Shown: piece by piece, positions 50,042 through 58,499 of the stretch | Layout: the number at the start of each line of letters is the position of its first letter | Numbering within the stretch: the first letter of the stretch is position 1 | Source: an uncultured bacterium | GTDB taxonomy: Bacteria > Planctomycetota > Phycisphaerae > Phycisphaerales > SM1A02 | DNA: 64,000 nucleotides | Reading direction: 5' to 3' | Assembly: GCA_903891095.1 (NCBI GenBank) | Contig: CAITDI010000050.1 | Span: forward strand, 1-64,000 | Notes under the pieces: model-generated | Told to the model about the DNA's origin: nothing | What the model saw: only the letters and a program-made list of their open reading frames with translations | Database searches by the model: none | Translations under genes and position numbers: made by a program

Positions 50042-51547
50042 TCACTTGCGACGGGCACCGCCGCGCTTGGCGGCGGGCTTCGACTTCGACTGCGACTTCG
50101 GCTTCGACTTCGACTTCGACTTGGCGGATGCTGGCTTCTTCGCCGGCTTCTTGCTGGAAGCCTTCTTCGTGGCCGACTTCTTCGTGGAAGCCTTCTTCGT
50201 GGAAGCCTTCTGCTTCTTGGCGAGCTCGGCCTTCTTCGCGGCAGCTTCGCGCTGCTTGCGGCGCTGTTCGTCGGCCTTTGCCTTTGCTGCGGCGGCCTTG
50301 GCCTTCGCGGCGGCAGACTTGGCCTTCGCGGCATTCGCCTTGGCCTTCACGGCGTCCGCCTTGGCCTTCACGGCGTCCGCCTTGGCCTTCGCCTTGGCCT
50401 TCACGGCGTCCGCCTTCGCCTTCGCCTTTGCCTTCGCCTCAGCGGCCTTGATCTTCGCAGCGTCGGCCTTGGCCTTCGCAGCTGCGGCCTTCGCCTTCGC
50501 GGCGTCCGCCTTGGCCTTCGCGGCGTCCGCCTTCGCCTTCGCCGCAGCTGCCTTCTCGGCGGCCTTCTGCTTGGCCTTTTCCTTGGCTTCGGCTTCCTTG
50601 GCGCGCTGGAGCTCGCGTGCGACGCGTTCGGTCTCGCGCTGCTTGATCTTGCGCTCGCGCTCGGCGATCGCGGCAACGCGGGCTGCCTCGCGGGCGGCCT
50701 TCTCGCGGATGCGCGCTTCCTCGGCCTCGCGCTTCTGGCGGATGCGATCTTCCTCGCGCGCGATCTCGGCGAGGCGCTTCTCCTCCACAAGGCGCTCGGC
50801 CTCGCGGATCTTGGCGAGCTTCTCGTCCTCGATGCGCTTGCGCTCGGCGTCCTCGGCGGCGCGGAAGCCCGCGTGACGCGCGAGATACGCGCCGCGGATC
50901 TTGGTGCCGTTCTTGCCGGCGGCGGTCCACGCCTCGCTCGTCATCTGCGACAGCGCGTGGTGGACCTTGGGGAGTTCCTCGACGCGGTAGTTCTTACCGA
51001 TCCAGGTGCAGACATCGAGCGTGGTGGTCGTGGGCTCGACGGCGCCGTTCTGGTGCAGCAGCTCGACGGCGGTGTCGTCGACGATCGGCGCAGGCAGTTC
51101 GAACGCGACAAGCAGCGTGCGCGCCGCGACGAACGGCGGGATCTCCGCCAGTCCCTCGAGATATGTGCGCTGGTCCTTGCGGGCCGCGTTGCGGAGATGG
51201 TCGAGCGACGTCCGATGCTGGCGGCGGAAGATGTCGTTGAGCGTCGAACGCAGGCGCGTCGCCCGCTCCTCGGCAAACGGGTACTTCTCGCCGAACGCCT
51301 CGATGAGCTCGCTCTCGAGCATCACGCGCAGTTCGTTCGCGTCGACCACGAGGCGGCTGAGCTTGGCCAGCGCCTCCTCGGCGAGCGGAACCGTGCTCTC
51401 CCACAGCAGGTAGTTCGAGAGAAGGATCGCAAGCGGATCGTTCGGCTCGGCTCCCTGCAGGAGCGGGGTTGCGAAGGACGGCGTTCCCGATCCGTACTTC
51501 TTGATCAGTGCCGTGAACTTGGGGCCACGAACGGGGTCGACCTTCAT
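50042..51547 (-). CDS. HhH-GPD-like protein with histone-H1-like Lys/Ala tail
   Basis: 501 residues. Residues ~1-215 resemble the helix-hairpin-helix/GPD glycosylase fold of endonuclease III: LAILLSNYLLWESTVPLAEEAL, then LAEIPPFVAARTLLVAFELPAPIVDDTAVELLH, where IPPF stands in the place of the LPGVG hairpin and the Asp in VDDTA is at the catalytic-Asp position. The catalytic Lys of bifunctional glycosylases is not present, and the iron-sulfur Cys cluster is absent. Residues ~235-335 are a charged coiled-coil region rich in Glu/Arg/Lys. Residues ~335-501 are repeats of AKAKADA and SKKxxxKK type like histone H1. Its ATG overlaps rbfA's stop, so it shares the nusA-infB-rbfA operon. Likely DNA or RNA binding; catalysis is doubtful. 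Confidence 0.85.
   Translation of the reverse strand: MKVDPVRGPKFTALIKKYGSGTPSFATPLLQGAEPNDPLAILLSNYLLWESTVPLAEEALAKLSRLVVDANELRVMLESELIEAFGEKYPFAEERATRLRSTLNDIFRRQHRTSLDHLRNAARKDQRTYLEGLAEIPPFVAARTLLVAFELPAPIVDDTAVELLHQNGAVEPTTTTLDVCTWIGKNYRVEELPKVHHALSQMTSEAWTAAGKNGTKIRGAYLARHAGFRAAEDAERKRIEDEKLAKIREAERLVEEKRLAEIAREEDRIRQKREAEEARIREKAAREAARVAAIAERERKIKQRETERVARELQRAKEAEAKEKAKQKAAEKAAAAKAKADAAKAKADAAKAKAAAAKAKADAAKIKAAEAKAKAKAKADAVKAKAKAKADAVKAKADAVKAKANAAKAKSAAAKAKAAAAKAKADEQRRKQREAAAKKAELAKKQKASTKKASTKKSATKKASSKKPAKKPASAKSKSKSKPKSQSKSKPAAKRGGARRK
50265..50560 (-). repeat. Imperfect 15-base repeats coding the AKAKAD tail
   Basis: Roughly twenty degenerate units such as GCCTTGGCCTTCGCGGC on the plus strand; they encode Ala-Lys-Ala-Lys-Ala-Asp blocks. 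Slippage at this array could change tail length. Not a CRISPR array, since no unique spacers occur. Confidence 0.8.
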
Positions 51548-52095
51548 CGCGTCGTGTTCTCCGATGTACCTTCGGCGGAGCCGTCCGCCGTCGTTTCCTG
51601 CGCGCCCGACCCTCCGTCGCGAATCACCGCGTCCAGCGCGGCCTGTCGCTTCATCCGGTCGTCCAGTTCGAACTCGATGCGCGGGACCCGGCCGATCCGG
51701 GTTCCGTCCATCACGCGCCGACGCAGGAATCCCGCGGCGGCGCGAAGCCCCGACAGCGTGAGCGACGCGCGGTCCTCAGGGAGGACCGACACGCGCACGC
51801 GCGCCTCGGCCAGATCCGGCGTGAGCACGACCTCGGTGATCGAGATCATGCCCTGCACGCGCGGGTCGTTGAGACCGCGCGCGAGCTCGGCCTGCAGTGC
51901 ACGGCGGACTTCGCCCGCGACCTGCGCGGGACGGTCCGACGGCTCCGCCGAAGGACCGAGCGGACCACCAGCACGCACGCGAGGTGCGGGCTTGCGGGCT
52001 TCAGGCTTGCGCAGCGATTCAGGCTTGCGCGACCTGGGCTCGGATCCTTCGTCGTTCGGCGTCGGCTTCATGGAATCTGGTTTCTCTCGAGCCAT
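51544..52095 (-). CDS. rbfA: Ribosome-binding factor A
   Basis: 183 residues. A basic, Pro/Arg-rich N-terminal tail of about 60 residues precedes the RbfA KH-like domain: VAGEVRRALQAELARGLNDPRVQGMISITEVVLTPDLAEARVRVSVL and LRRRVMDGTRIGRVPRIEFELDDRMK. RbfA aids 30S maturation by binding 16S rRNA near the 5' end. The family usually begins close to the KH-like domain, so the long tail is an addition. The ATG at 52095 overlaps the infB TGA (TGATG); an in-frame TTG sits one codon upstream. Its stop overlaps the next ATG by four bases. Confidence 0.95.
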   Translation of the reverse strand: MAREKPDSMKPTPNDEGSEPRSRKPESLRKPEARKPAPRVRAGGPLGPSAEPSDRPAQVAGEVRRALQAELARGLNDPRVQGMISITEVVLTPDLAEARVRVSVLPEDRASLTLSGLRAAAGFLRRRVMDGTRIGRVPRIEFELDDRMKRQAALDAVIRDGGSGAQETTADGSAEGTSENTTR

Positions 52096-55000
52096 CAATT
52101 ACGCTTCACTTCGATCGTCTTGTAGCACTCGAGGACGTCGCCTTCCTTGATGTCGTCGTAGCCGACGATCTTCATGCCGCACTCCTGGCCGGCGCGAACT
52201 TCCTTCGCGTCGTCCTTGAAGCGCTTGAGCTGCTCGAGACGGCGGTCCTTCTCGACGACGATGCCGTTGCGGGTGACGCGGATCTGCGCATTGCGCTCGA
52301 CCACGCCGTCCGTGACATAGCAACCGGCGATGGCGCCGACCTTCGAGATCTTGAAGACCTGACGGACCTCGGCGTGTCCGAGCACCTCGAGCTTGAGCTC
52401 GGGAGCCAGCATGCCCTTGGCCGCCTTGAGGACGTCGTCGATGAGGTCGTAGATGACTTCGTACAGACGAATCTCGATGCCCTTCGACTCCGCCAGCTGG
52501 CGGGCCTTGCTGCTCGAGGTGACGTTGAAGCCCACGATGATCGCGTTGGTCGCGCCAGCGAGGGACACGTCGCCCTCGTTGATGCCGCCCGCGCTCGCGC
52601 TCTTGACGGAGATGGTGACTTCCTCGGCCGGCAGCTTCGCGAGCATTCCCTTGAGGGCCTCGACGGAGCCCTGCACGTCGGCCTTGACGACGAGCGCGAG
52701 TTCCTTCTTGCCCTGCTTCTCGAGGTGCTTGAAGATGTTGTCGAGGGTGATCTTCGGCGCAGCGAGCTCGCGCTCGCGGTCGATGCGGCGACGCTCCTCG
52801 GCGGCTTCTTCCGCGGCGCGGAGCGACGGGACGACGAACGCCTTGTCGCCTGCGTCGGGAAGCGTGTCGATGCCCGAGATCGCGACCGGCGTGGACGGAA
52901 GCGCCTCGGTGACGCGCTCGCCCTTGTCGTTCACGATGTCGCGCACGCGGCCGTAGCCGCGGCCGATGACGATGAAGTCGCCCTTCTTGAGGCAGCCTTC
53001 CTGGATGAGGACGCGCGCGACGGGGCCGCGGCCTTCCTCGACCGAGGCCTCGAGCACGGTGCCGCGCGCGTTGCCCTTGAAGTCGGCCTTGAGCTCGAGG
53101 AGTTCCGCGTGGTAGTCGAGGATCTCGAGGAGCTGCTGGATGCCGTCGCCGCGGGTGGCGCTGGTGCGGATGACTTCCGTCGTTCCGCCCCACTCCACCG
53201 GGTTGAGCTCGTGCTCGGCGAGCTGGCCGAGCAGACGACGGATGTTCGCCTCGTTCGCATCGGGACGGTCGATCTTGTTCATCGCGACGACGATGGGCAC
53301 GCCCGCCGCCTTCGCGTGGTTGATCGACTCGATGGTCTGCGGCATGACGCCGTCGACCGCGGACACGACGAGCACGACGATGTCGGTGACCTTCGCGCCA
53401 CGGGCACGCATGGCGGTGAACGCCTCGTGACCCGGGGTATCGATGAAGGTGACCACGCGGTCGACGTCGCCGGCCTTGACCGGAACGGTGAACGCGCGCG
53501 TCGACTGGGTGATGCCGCCGGCCTCGCCCGCAGCGATGTTGGTGCTGCGGATCCGGTCGAGCAGACTGGTCTTGCCGTGGTCGACGTGACCGAGGATGGT
53601 GACGATCGGCGCGCGGCGGCGCTCGTCGAGCCTCTCGCGTCCCTTGAAGCGCTCCTCGATGATGTCGGCGGCGGACTTCGCCTCGTCGACGATCAGGTCG
53701 ATCTCGAACTCCATCATCATCTCGATGGCCTTCTCGCGATCGATGGCGCTGTTGATGGTCGCCATCGTGCCGCCGAGGAAGAGCTTCTTGATGATGTCGA
53801 CGGCCTTGATGCCGGTCGCAGCGGAGAGTTCCTTGATGGTCAGCGGCTCGGCGACGTGCACTTGCTGCACTTCACCTGGCTTGCGCTCGGCCTTCTGGCC
53901 ACCCATGCCTCCGCCAGGACCGCCGGCGCGGCCGGGCATGTTGCGATGCGAGCGCATGAAGCCGCTCGAACCATCGACTCGCGCCTGACGGTCGCGGAGA
54001 TCCTGTGCGCCAAAGCCCGTACGCGCGGTCTCGCCAGCGCGACCGGTGCGCGATGCACCGATGCCGCCACGACCACGAACCTCGGGACGACCAGCGCCAC
54101 CGGTTCCGGTACGACCGCCACGCATGGGGCCGCCCGCACCAGTGGTGCCAGGACCACCCAGTCCGGGACGACGCATCGGCGGCGGCGTGGGAAGGTTGTC
54201 TGCCTGCTCGACGCGGATGACCTGCGGGCCGGAGAGTTTGGTCTTCTCACGGTTGCCGAGCTGCGGGCCGACGGGACCGACGATCGACGGCCGCGTGGGC
54301 ACGTTCATGACCGGCGGAAGTTCGGATGCCTTGCCGAGCGATGCGGGCGGCGGCGGCGGCGCGGTGATGACGCGACGGGCGGCGGGCTCGAGCGCGGGCT
54401 TGGACGGACCGCTCGGATTCGAGGTCGCGGGCGAAGTGCCCGACGAACCCGACGAGCGACCGGCGGAACCTCTGCCGATTTCCTCACGCGGCGAAAGCCG
54501 CGTCGTGAGGCCGGCGGGAACGCGCGGCGCCATCGGCGCGGGCGGAACCGTGGGAGCCGCCACGGGAGTGACAGCGCGAGGAGCGACCGCTGGCGCGGAT
54601 GCTTCGGTTGCCGGTTCGGGCTTGGCTGCAGCGGGCTTCGTTTCGGTCGGCGCAGATGCGGCGACCTCAACGGCAGGCTGGGCAGAAGGCTTGGCTGCGG
54701 TGGACGCTGCTGCTTCCGTTTCCGTCGCGCGGTCCGTTGCCGTCGACGACTTGCCTTCCGCGCGAGGCGCGGGTGCATCGGCTGCAGCTTCATCGCTCGC
54801 GGGAGCGGCGGTCACAACGGGCTTCGTTGCGGCAGGCGCCTTCGCGGCGGCCTTCGCCGCCGGCTTCTCCACGACGGTCTCGACGACGGGTGCCGGCGCC
54901 TTCTTGGTCGCGCGCTTGGCGACGGTCGGCGTGCCGGAGTCGGTCGCCTCGGGCGCTGCCGCCTTCGGTGCCTTCGCGGCGGGTGCGGTCTTGGCAGGCG

Positions 55001-55235
55001 CGTCGTTGGCGGTCTCGCTTGTACCCGCTTCAGGCTCGGTCGCCGTAGCCGTACCACCACCTGCTCCCGCGAACCACTCGCGGACAGTCAGCGCCAGTCC
55101 GATGGAGACGGGCGAAAGGTGGTTGACGATGTCAGGGATGTCCTCGGCCTGGCATCGTGCGACGATGTCCTTGGAATTGACGCCGAGTTCCTTGGCAAGT
55201 TGATGGACCTTCAGCGACGCGGGTTTCTTCGACAA
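52095..55235 (-). CDS. infB: Translation initiation factor IF-2
   Basis: 1046 residues. IF-2 is the GTPase that recruits fMet-tRNA to the 30S subunit. An N-terminal domain ([21 protein letters not shown]) is followed by a long, low-complexity Ala/Pro/Thr/Arg/Gly region to about residue 430. The G domain starts near 545 ([16 protein letters not shown]), with [22 protein letters not shown] and [10 protein letters not shown]; domains II-IV follow in full. The start is TTG 55235, supported by a perfect AGGAGG five bases upstream (55241-55246); no ATG fits. It lies 67 bases after nusA and couples to rbfA through TGATG. Confidence 0.96.
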
Positions 55236-55302: not shown

Positions 55303-56667
55303 TCAGCCGTTTGCACGGCCAGAGCGACCGAACCCGAGAATCGAGTCGGCAGCGCTTTCTGCATCCATATCCGGCGCCGGCGGCGCGCCTTCCGCGGGGG
55401 CGCCATCGCCACCGAGGATTGCGTTCGTCGCCGCCGCGTCTTCCGCTGCGCGCTGCGCGGCCGCAGCCGCGTCGCGCTCGCGCTCGACCTCGACCTCGCG
55501 GGCGCGGTTGCTCGAGGCAGCGCAGACGATCTCCGCGAGCTCGTCGGTGATGCCCAGTTCCTCGACGAGGATCTGGTGACCGATCTCCTCGATGTCGAAC
55601 ACGCTGATCATGCCCAGCGCGCCGATCTTGTCGAGCATCTCGTCGGTGACACCCTCGATCGGACGCAGCGTCTCGCCGAGGATCTCAAGACCCTTCGCGA
55701 ATTCCGGCGGCGTGAGGATGTCGATGTCCCAGCCGGTGAGGCGCGCCGCGAGGCGCACGTTCTGACCGCGCTTGCCGATGGCGAGCGAGAGCTGGTCCTC
55801 GCGGACGATGATCGTCGCGCGGCCGAGCTCGAAGCAGAGGCTGACTTCCTCGACAGCGGCCGGACGGACGGCGTTCGAGATGAGCACCTGGCTGGACTCG
55901 TTCCACAGGACGATGTCGATCTTCTCGCCGTTGACTTCGTCGACGATGTTGCGGATACGGCTGCCGCGCACGCCGATGCACGCGCCCTTGGCATCGACCT
56001 TGGAGTCGACGCTGGCGACGGCGACCTTGCAGCGCTGTCCGGGCTCGCGGGCGAGCGCCTTGATCTCGATCACGCGCTCCGCGACCTCGGGAACCTCGGC
56101 CTCGAAGAGGCGGCGGATGAAGTCGGGATTGCCGCGCGAGAGGATGATCTTGACCTGGCTACCGCCGTCGCGCACGTCGAGCACGAGGCAGCGGATGCGG
56201 TCGCCGGGCTTGAACATCTCGCCGGGGATCTGCTCGGACTTGGGCATGAACGCCTCGGCGCGGTCGACCTGCACGATGAGCGCGGGACCTTCCTGGCGCA
56301 CGACGGTGCCGGTGACGATCTCACCCTGGCGCTTGGCGAACTCTTCCATGAGCGAGTTGCGCTCGTCCTCGCGGAACTTCTGGATCATCACCTGCTTGGC
56401 GGTCTGCGCCGGGATGCGGCCGAGACGCTCGATCGGGATGTCCTCGCGGTCGATGATCTCGCCCTCGTCGTTCATGACGTTGCGCCAGATCGTGATCTTG
56501 CCGCTGAGGCGGTCCATCTCGCAGCCGAACTCCTCGGCGTCGAGCGAGTCGAAGTGCTTGCGCGCAGCGCTCATCATCGCCATCTCGAGGTCGCGAATGA
56601 GATGCTCGCGATCGACGTTGCGGTCGCGGGCGATGGAGTCGAGGATGCGGAGCGTTTCGGAATTCAT
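55303..56667 (-). CDS. nusA: Transcription termination/antitermination factor NusA
   Basis: 454 residues from ATG 56667. Residues ~1-130 form the NusA N domain (LRILDSIARDRNVDREHLIRDLEMAMMSAA); ~130-210 are the S1 domain (IVTGTVVRQEGPALIVQVDRAEAFMPKSEQIPGE); ~230-380 hold KH1 and KH2 with their GxxG loops (GACIGVRGSRIRNIVDEVNGE and SLAIGKRGQNVRLAARLTGWDI). The tail has one AR-type repeat and a charged helix. Length and domains are standard. The operon order nusA-infB-rbfA is widely conserved, but rimP is not in front. Upstream is a structured RNA with its own terminator ending 129 bases before this ATG. Confidence 0.96.
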   Translation of the reverse strand: MNSETLRILDSIARDRNVDREHLIRDLEMAMMSAARKHFDSLDAEEFGCEMDRLSGKITIWRNVMNDEGEIIDREDIPIERLGRIPAQTAKQVMIQKFREDERNSLMEEFAKRQGEIVTGTVVRQEGPALIVQVDRAEAFMPKSEQIPGEMFKPGDRIRCLVLDVRDGGSQVKIILSRGNPDFIRRLFEAEVPEVAERVIEIKALAREPGQRCKVAVASVDSKVDAKGACIGVRGSRIRNIVDEVNGEKIDIVLWNESSQVLISNAVRPAAVEEVSLCFELGRATIIVREDQLSLAIGKRGQNVRLAARLTGWDIDILTPPEFAKGLEILGETLRPIEGVTDEMLDKIGALGMISVFDIEEIGHQILVEELGITDELAEIVCAASSNRAREVEVERERDAAAAAQRAAEDAAATNAILGGDGAPAEGAPPAPDMDAESAADSILGFGRSGRANG

Positions 56668-56795
56668 GGTGATGTGACCTCTTCGTGACGGGTTGTGGCG
56701 GACGGGAGCATCGTCCGGTGCCGGGTTCGCCGGCCTAGGTTGTCGCCGTTGATGACGGCGTTTGGATGTGGCCTTCACGCAGGTCGCGTGAAGTC

Positions 56796-56828
56796 AGGAA
56801 ACAAAACGACCACGGAAGCATTCCGTGG
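56796..56828 (-). terminator. Intrinsic terminator before nusA
   Basis: Minus-strand stem CCACGGAA/TTCCGTGG (eight pairs, three-base loop), followed by TCGTTTTGTTT. The plus strand has A-rich sequence there instead, so it acts on minus-strand transcription towards nusA. Another perfect hairpin (CTTCACGC/GCGTGAAG, 56773-56793) follows directly. Confidence 0.8.
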
Positions 56829-57076
56829 CCGGTCGGCGAAGGGCATGCAGCACGCGCCTCAGTTCAAAGAGGCGCCTCCTGCAGCTGATCCGAGGAGTCA
56901 AAGCACAGACAGGACACCTTTGGCGTGCTGTGGGTGCATTCGATGCACCACGCACACAAAGGCATAAAGCCTTGCACCACGCTCGGGCCGAGGCGAGGAT
57001 GAGACCTTGAGGGCCTCATCGCTTGCATCCGACCCGAACGGTCCTGCAGCTCGACGGATCACGGGGGTGTGTCACA
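56796..57076 (-). ncRNA. Multi-hairpin RNA element upstream of nusA (attenuator or ncRNA)
   Basis: Read on the minus strand this 280-base stretch contains a series of well-formed hairpins: 57003-56998 with 57020-57015 (GATGAG/CTCATC); a compound stem at 56917-56962 (CCTTTG/CAAAGG, GCGTG/CACGC, GTGCAT/ATGCAC, 17 pairs); 56854-56875 (GCGCCTC/GAGGCGC); and a terminal hairpin with a U-rich tail (56810-56828). It has no convincing coding content. An extended -10 (57083-57092) lies at its 5' end. It ends 129 bases before nusA. It matches no RNase P, tmRNA, SRP or 6S core sequence that I could recognise. Confidence 0.45.
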
Positions 57077-57078
57077 CC
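57066..57078. promoter_or_regulatory. Palindrome GGTGTGTCACACC, possible operator
   Basis: Six-base-pair perfect inverted repeat with one central base, located at the predicted start site downstream of the -10 at 57083-57092. A regulator binding here would block initiation; alternatively it forms the first hairpin of the RNA. Confidence 0.35.
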
Positions 57079-57082
57079 TGGG

Positions 57083-57092
57083 ATCAGTAGCA
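57083..57092 (-). promoter_or_regulatory. Extended -10 element TGCTACTGAT (minus strand)
   Basis: TGC-TACTGA on the minus strand, matching the window's extended -10 pattern. It would start a transcript near 57076 reading through the hairpin RNA towards nusA. No strong -35 is visible. Confidence 0.4.
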
Positions 57093-57317
57093 TTGGACAA
57101 ACCGCTCGGTCGCAGACCGGAAAACAAACACACGCGACGCAACGAGCGCGTCTCGCGAGGCTTGAAAGATATCTGCACCGAGCCTCTAGGTCAATGGACT
57201 TGCGTCATGCCGACCCGGAGATCGTGCGAGTTTGTCCGCATGATCAGCGCCGAAGCCCCAAGGAAACCCTCGGAAAGTCGCGGATTTCGCGGGCGTTGCG
57301 CCCTGCTTCTCCCGCGT
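57093..57317. other. Non-coding gap between nusA leader and fliM
   Basis: Less GC-rich than the genes on either side. Short frames here show no recognisable protein. A partial inverted repeat GGGCG/CGCCC near 57295 could end the fliM transcript but has no T-tract. Confidence 0.45.
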
Positions 57318-58358
57318 TCAGCTCGCGGCGCCGTCGAGATCGAGGCGCTCGGTCGGCGCCACGGCACGCACGATGCGAAGCGCACGGTTGCCGCGAAGCT
57401 GGCCCAAGTCCGCAAGGAACTTGGACTTGCCGCCGACCCCGAGCGCAACAGGCGACTTGGCCGGCCGCTGGGTGACGATCAGGTCGCCCACCTCGAGCTG
57501 GCGGAGCTCCTGGATCGAGATCGTGGTCGTGGCGAGGGTCGCCTCGAGTTCGAGCTTGGCGCCCGAGAGGCCGCTCGCGATCCGCTCGGCCGCGCCCGAC
57601 TCGCCTGAGCTCTTGCCCGACACGAACCAGCTCTGGGCCGACAGGTCCTCGACCAAGGGTTCGATCGCGTTATACGGAATGCAGAGGCGCATGCGGCCGC
57701 CGCGGTTCATGAGCTTGACCTCGAACTCGACGACCACGACCACCTCGTTCGGCGGCACGATCTGGACGAGCTGCGGGTTGGACTCCATGTCGCCAAGGGC
57801 GAACTCGATCTTGCGGATGCCCGCCCACGCCTCGCTCAGCGCGGCCATCGCGCGGTGGAGGATGCGCTGGATGAGGCGGGTCTCGATCAGGGTCATCGGC
57901 CGGCGCGGGACGAACAGGTCCTTGTTCGAGCCCCCGAGCAGGCGGTCGATGATCGGGAAGATCACCAGCGGCGAGAGTTCAAGGCAGATCTGGCCTTCGA
58001 GCGGCGGGCAGCGCACGAGGTTGAAACTCGTGGGATTCTCGCTCTCAGACACGAATTCCGAGTAGGTCTTCTGCGAGGCGTCCTTGATGGAGACCTCGAC
58101 GATGGTGCGCAGGTGGCCCGAGAGCGACGCGCCGAAATTGCGGGCGAAGGTCTCGTGCAGCATGCGCAGTGCGCGCATCTGGTCCTTCGAGATGCGTTCG
58201 GGGCGCTTGAAGTCGTACTTCTCGATCTCGATGCGATCGCGGTCGCGGCGCGCACGGGAGAAGATCTGGGTGGGCGGCGCCTCGACCACAGGCGCGGGCG
58301 CGCTCGCGGCGTTGAGCAGCGCGTCGATGTCAGACTGGTTGAGAACCTCAGTGCCCAT
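57318..58358 (-). CDS. fliM: Flagellar motor switch protein FliM
   Basis: 346 residues. The N terminus MGTEVLNQSDIDALLNA is the CheY-P-binding motif (LSQDEIDALL in E. coli). The central CheC-like domain includes RLLGGSNKDLFVPRRPMTLIETRLIQRILHRAM, with the conserved GG of the FliG-binding loop, and the C-terminal SpoA domain has LEATLATTTISIQELRQLEVGDLIVTQRP. So it should assemble in the motor C-ring. It stands alone: no other flagellar or chemotaxis gene is visible in the window. The ATG at 58358 is chosen since the frame further upstream is not FliM-like. It is divergent from dsbD. Confidence 0.95.
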   Translation of the reverse strand: MGTEVLNQSDIDALLNAASAPAPVVEAPPTQIFSRARRDRDRIEIEKYDFKRPERISKDQMRALRMLHETFARNFGASLSGHLRTIVEVSIKDASQKTYSEFVSESENPTSFNLVRCPPLEGQICLELSPLVIFPIIDRLLGGSNKDLFVPRRPMTLIETRLIQRILHRAMAALSEAWAGIRKIEFALGDMESNPQLVQIVPPNEVVVVVEFEVKLMNRGGRMRLCIPYNAIEPLVEDLSAQSWFVSGKSSGESGAAERIASGLSGAKLELEATLATTTISIQELRQLEVGDLIVTQRPAKSPVALGVGGKSKFLADLGQLRGNRALRIVRAVAPTERLDLDGAAS

Positions 58359-58499
58359 CGTTGGTCCCACTGGCTGCAGCTTCCGGCTCCGCCGGGCGCA
58401 CGCGGAACGCGTGCGCAGTGGCGCTTCATCGGCGCCCGCGCACCGCGGGCTTGAACCGTCGAATCCCTCGCGCAAGGCAACCGACCGCGGAAGCGACCG

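Follow-up and report, generated by a model that had tools for sequence, protein, structure and literature searches.

A probable transcription attenuator with a candidate antiterminator helix and two small open reading frames in the nusA operon leader of Phycisphaerae

The nusA-infB-rbfA operon in the window (the whole 64,000-nt stretch of DNA analysed here) is preceded by a structured leader that is probably a transcription attenuator, containing a candidate antiterminator helix, P1, and two small open reading frames (ORFs). The attenuator itself is well supported: the element always lies before nusA, its terminator is conserved, and P1 covaries and competes with the base of the terminator. 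A terminator before the nusA operon and autoregulation by NusA are known from other bacteria; the planctomycete antiterminator proposed here and the two small ORFs at this place appear to be new. An earlier note on this DNA had also read the leader as an attenuator of the nusA operon, and that part of it stands; it misplaced the promoter and overlooked both the small ORFs and the antiterminator. The genes of the locus are:

55303..56667, minus strand: nusA (Pfam NusA_N, S1, KH_5)
52095-55235, minus strand: infB (Pfam IF-2), operon gene downstream of nusA
51544-52098, minus strand: rbfA (Pfam RBFA), operon gene downstream of nusA
57318-58397, minus strand: fliM (Pfam FliM), upstream neighbour of the leader

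nusA is the first gene of the operon in the window, and the Pfam matches confirm the four gene identities given previously. The strong folding claimed for the fliM-nusA region was also confirmed: the minus strand of the gap has a minimum free energy of -197.6, compared to -156.3 ± 6.0 for dinucleotide shuffles (z -6.9, 0/100). Rfam searches at both gathering and permissive thresholds returned no match in this region of the window or in 40 other nusA leaders, in agreement with the earlier failure to assign the RNA to a known family.

The element had been thought to be limited to positions 56668-57092. The promoter and the start of the leader lie further upstream:

57166..57194, minus strand: sigma70-type promoter, TTGACC-17-TATCTT, the single such site in the window, conserved in the genus
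57136..57152, minus strand: hairpin at the transcript start, GACGC..GCGTC, found in most genus members by sequence and alignment

TTGACC-17-TATCTT has its sole match in the window at this site (0.03 expected) and is kept in almost all genomes of the genus in the alignment. Its position would place the start of transcription near 57159, making the leader longer than previously stated. The 'extended -10' described near 57092 (TGCTACTGAT) turned out to be the start of a leader ORF (ATG CTA CTG ATC..., 57093-57016): in its context, A-TGCTACTGAT, it forms the beginning of 25 codons, and the true promoter is about 75-100 nt upstream of it. The loop of the hairpin at 57136-57152 recurs across many members of the genus in a form like GCGTTCGTTGCG.

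We compared 129 nusA leaders, 16 from the genus of the window, 55 from the family, 38 from other families of the order and 20 from other orders of the class, and then applied the resulting rules to a hold-out of 21 leaders, taken from a different collection and with little sequence in common with the first 129. The element is present in all 16 genus genomes (the window and 15 others), in the order fliM-element-nusA wherever both genes are on the contig. A covariance model, R1, of the part comprising the first ORF and its stem-loop SL1 matched 16/16 genus genomes, and elsewhere in 301 genomes of the order it gave only chance-level matches and no convincing copy. Other genera and families have the same leader layout in a different sequence, even where the upstream gene is not fliM. 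The shared anatomy consists of a promoter, a short ORF ending in a covarying hairpin, a minigene, a terminator, ACAACC boxes and nusA. The conservation and the covariation in relatives that the earlier note had proposed to look for were thus both found.

The terminator is the best defined of these parts:

56799..56831, minus strand: intrinsic terminator, CGGCCACGGAATGCTTCCGTGGTCG followed by TTTTGTTT (sequence, search rule, covariation)

Its stem (56831-56807; CGGCCACGG..CCGUGGUCG in the window) and the U-rich tail TTTTGTTT lie about 129 nt upstream of the nusA start codon (ATG, 56667), just as had been claimed. The stem covaries in the genus, with 11 cells altered on both sides (0/500 shuffles), and all slid registers of the same alignment were far worse than the true one. 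One simple rule finds a stem-loop followed by a U-tract before nusA in 110 of the 129 leaders. Interruptions fall within the first 8 nt of the U-tract in 16/16 genus leaders and 91/92 leaders across the order; in B. subtilis, terminators that depend on NusA and NusG are reported to have interrupted U-tracts (PMC8060035). Where the upstream neighbour is a gene other than fliM, the terminator is still found before nusA, showing that it is not a fliM terminator. In two genus genomes (G006 and G002, leaders L010 and L007) repeated GTGGCTTTTCTGTTTCG-like units follow the tail, several copies of them in L010, and look as if the end of the U-tract had been amplified.

The base of the terminator stem is also predicted to pair with a sequence close to the start of the transcript:

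57111..57120, minus strand: 5′ strand of P1 (CCGGUCUGCG), proposed antiterminator (covariation, duplex energy, order-wide and hold-out tests)
56829..56834, minus strand: 3′ strand of P1, GACCGG, overlapping the bottom three terminator pairs (covariation, duplex energy)

In the core of this long-range helix, CCGGUC (57120-57115) pairs with GACCGG (56834-56829). Across the genus, with the register picked by eye for a few members, both partners had changed in four of the six pairs (0/500 shuffles), and controls with a slid register failed. Longer segments around the core paired better with partners from their own genome than with those of other genomes (-15.9 vs. -13.2 ± 0.57, p<1/20000). We also used an alignment-free test, in which the first 5-95 nt after the -10 were set against the 5′ flank of the terminator in matched and permuted combinations. 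This gave significant z scores of -4.4 in families f5-f6, -3.3 in the family of the window, -2.5 in the genus and -2.3 in f2-f4, with a weak signal at class level (-1.6). A control window 95-140 nt after the -10 yielded no significant pairing signal in any group. The result was reproduced in the 21 hold-out leaders (z -3.7, with 0/5000 permutations as good and a null control window). In folding of the window RNA, P1 reached a pair probability of about 1 once only the 5′ arm of the terminator was out, and it occupied the lowest terminator pairs even with the full terminator present. P1 therefore overlaps the terminator base and covaries, as expected for an antiterminator that is mutually exclusive with its terminator; the covariation and the hold-out replication make it a credible candidate for this role.

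Two related ideas were rejected. A local hairpin, CGGUC-UGC-GACCG, uses the same 5′ strand but, unlike P1, shows no covariation. In 5/6 leaders of family f6, the Shine-Dalgarno (SD) sequence of the first leader ORF itself serves as the P1 strand (for example GGCUUGAGGU with ACCUCAAGCC, and GCCCGAGG with CCUCGGGC); as a general rule, masking of this SD by P1 failed, being confined to that one family (12/31 overall vs. 9.2 expected).

The first of the two small ORFs, uORF1, and the stem-loop at its end are:

57016..57093, minus strand: uORF1, 25-codon leader ORF, MLLIPGVTHPRDPSSCRTVRVGCKR and stop (frame, start and stop kept in the genus; short uORFs with an SD enriched order-wide)
56980..57040, minus strand: stem-loop SL1; the end of uORF1 forms its 5′ arm, and the stop codon lies in the inner hairpin

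The frame of uORF1 is open in 16/16 genus genomes with conserved SD, start and stop codons, and its length is 25 codons in 11 of them and 19-30 in the others. Codon positions in the genus gave no clear synonymous signal. An SD followed by an ORF of 7-20 codons precedes the minigene in 14/29 leaders of the family (3.2 in shuffles), 9/11 leaders of f2-f4 (1.8) and 10/16 of f5-f6 (3.6). Judging from this conservation, uORF1 is likely to be translated. It has no run of regulatory codons, and its peptide differs between families. SL1 covaries in the genus, with 6/21 pairs changed on both sides (0/500 shuffles) and all slides worse.

The second small ORF is a minigene, defined here as an SD 5-9 nt before a start codon, then one codon, then a stop:

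56859..56867, minus strand: two-codon minigene TTG AAC TGA, located in the loop of hairpin 56876-56854 and preceded at 7 nt by the SD AGGAGG

Under strict rules it was found in 26/38 leaders from other families of the order (1.0 ± 0.9 in shuffles), 21/55 from the family (0.7 ± 0.8) and 8/20 from the class (0.6 ± 0.7). Other ORF lengths were at or near chance, except for two codons between start and stop (5/38) and a bare start-stop (4/20, class). A scored rule identified the minigene in 65/129 leaders, compared to 0-4 with any one of eight sets of control triplets in place of the stop. The stop is TGA in 48 cases, TAG in 10 and TAA in 7, and the use of three different stop codons is more than sequence conservation alone would explain. 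The signal was replicated in the hold-out (13/21 leaders vs. 0.22 ± 0.41 expected). Within the genus of the window the minigene is intact in only 2/16 genomes, the window among them, and is mostly degenerate. Elsewhere in the genomes the pattern had 24 matches vs. 1 for the reversed control, a count that is uninterpretable since ordinary codons (GAT GAC CTG) match the pattern too. By eye, some leaders seemed to allow a good pairing between minigene and terminator; as an antiterminator this pairing was rejected, failing a permutation test and showing no covariation.

Between the terminator and nusA lies a last conserved feature:

56769-56764, 56743-56738 and 56696-56691, minus strand: three ACA(A/T)CC boxes between terminator and nusA

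No other cluster of this kind lies on the minus strand of the window. In all groups of the order, ACA(A/T)C(C/T) is about 6-10 times more frequent between terminator and nusA than in shuffles, with none on the opposite strand of this stretch within the order; the hold-out contained 48 vs. 4.6 ± 2.2 expected. The idea that the boxes are specially unpaired sites was rejected, as other A/C-rich hexamers are almost equally unpaired. In other families the boxes before nusA read GACAACTGAATAG, and rrn leaders carry CTTTGACAAGTAAACAG. A similar element, CTTTGACAATTGAATAG, directly follows a boxA-like sequence between a tRNA and the 23S rRNA in genome G316. In this rrn spacer before the 23S rRNA (L188, near 1500), the boxA-like sequence is followed by ACAATTGAATAG, an element of the kind found before nusA in several families and a candidate Nus element for the class. 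In work by Beuth and colleagues from 2005, mycobacterial NusA reportedly binds the RNA AGAACUCAAUAG, which the boxes before nusA resemble. Binding of NusA to the predicted boxes, with ACAACUGAAUAG among the box sequences, is plausible on these grounds.

We propose the following scheme for the attenuator. Transcription would begin near 57159. If the early strand CCGGUCUGCG is free, P1 would form with bases immediately before the 5′ arm of the terminator and within it, taking the bottom three pairs of the terminator and parting the stem from the U-tract, so that RNA polymerase would read through into nusA. With P1 blocked, the full terminator would form and the operon would be switched off. The pairing of P1, and its competition with the terminator, are supported by covariation and folding; its effect on termination is what we infer from them. 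uORF1 and the minigene lie between the two strands of P1, and the choice between structures may depend on ribosome loading on the leader. Negative feedback is the likeliest logic for an operon encoding IF2, RbfA and NusA: ample initiation capacity and NusA would lead to termination, and shortage to read-through. The rrn-Nus-like boxes right before nusA could provide a second, NusA-binding control. The signal would be NusA or translation initiation. A minigene can report only initiation and termination, and we put forward, as a tentative idea that may well be wrong, that it serves as a sensor of translation initiation capacity, rather than of an amino acid or antibiotic, controlling the gene for IF2 and its partners.

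A role for NusA as regulator is plausible by analogy with B. subtilis, and from the interrupted U-tracts and rrn-Nus-like boxes. In a simpler scheme, NusA on RNA polymerase would strengthen termination in its own leader as in B. subtilis, P1 would merely be a closing helix, and the small ORFs would be incidental or just block Rho or RNases. The mechanism is known: B. subtilis NusA autoregulates through termination in the nusA leader (review PMC12288461), and the same is suspected for rimP-leaders (PMC2965389). The U-tracts of all 16 genus leaders bear the interruption that marks NusA/NusG dependence (PMC8060035), and other planctomycete classes keep the terminator without the minigene. The window thus shares with the B. 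subtilis leader a terminator upstream of nusA and the same presumed feedback, and its interrupted U-tract with NusA-dependent terminators generally; it differs in having small ORFs and P1, which are absent from the descriptions of that leader consulted here. The simpler scheme leaves unexplained the strong and specific start-one codon-stop signal with its hold-out replication, as well as a helix that covaries and reaches into the base of the terminator, and we consider it unlikely to be the whole story.

The earlier note had offered a free-standing ncRNA as its alternative to an attenuator. A trans-acting structured RNA, about 360 nt long and having a promoter and terminator of its own, would account for the P1-closed ends, and the terminated product would be stable. 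However, the element occurs only directly before nusA in every genome, R1 lacks a convincing copy elsewhere in the 301 order genomes, and the internal ribosome-binding sites and the boxes running up to nusA are more in keeping with a leader, making this alternative improbable. The region is not 6S RNA: it has no match to RF00013, and a weak candidate sits separately on another contig of the window's genome (G000:C38:13280-13450; 30.1 bits, under the 46.4 cut-off). Finally, that the terminator is the 3′ end of fliM, with nusA driven by an unseen promoter, is very hard to believe: fliM does end about 485 nt upstream on the same strand, but a conserved promoter lies between the two and the terminator follows nusA where the neighbour is another gene.

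The attenuator favoured here has relatives among known leaders. The rimP-leader (Rfam RF01770) is similar in having a terminator upstream of the nusA-infB operon with a stem sequence conserved beyond need, and the AAGUGGG..CCCACUU stems seen in planctomycetes at class and phylum level resemble, by eye, its GGGc..gCCC stem. The window and its order, in contrast, have GGCCACG..CGUGGYC stems rather than the conserved GGGc..gCCC, and the Rfam covariance model matched neither the window nor the 40 other leaders. The rimP-leader was described as a terminator before the rimP/nusA/infB operon (Naville & Gautheret 2010, PMC2965389); the nusA-infB leader has been called the most ubiquitous attenuator, whose general form has no known antiterminator or sensor (PMC2965389), whereas a covarying antiterminator and two small ORFs are found here. 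The E. coli metY-rimP-nusA-infB operon has leader terminators, t1 and t2 (PMC6511841), and also links NusA and IF2 to initiation, metY being an initiator tRNA gene; it has a tRNA gene and RNase III sites where our leader has a minigene, and the structures differ. Trp-type attenuators likewise combine a leader ORF with mutually exclusive terminator and antiterminator. Here, however, the peptide is not conserved between families, there is no regulatory codon run and the minigene cannot sense elongation.

Two-codon minigenes also occur as the lambda bar minigenes. In the axe-txe leader, mg2 is a two-codon minigene, ATG ACT TAA (PMC8708949), which like ours has an SD and start-one codon-stop, in cis in an mRNA leader, with a threonine codon common in both. 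It tunes translation of a toxin gene, whereas the minigene described here precedes the terminator of a core operon and is conserved over a bacterial class. In the literature available without subscription, we found no report of a minigene in a nusA leader or of this element in planctomycetes. The nusA-infB operon joins transcription and translation, and a covarying antiterminator and a conserved minigene in one lineage make the sensing by its leader testable by a few point mutations.

The minigene is absent from the leaders of other planctomycete classes (0/20, shuffles 1.0). The data suggest an evolutionary series, from terminator only in those classes, through addition of the minigene in Phycisphaerae, to its fading in the genus of the window. 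Many of the leaders from other classes (L213-L229) have AAGTGGG..CCCACTT terminators before nusA without a minigene, and two of them, L213 and L215, contain a bare ATG TAG. In one leader (L112, genome G066), the minigene module (GGAGCGCGCCATGACCTGAGCGCGCG plus flanks) occurs twice in tandem.
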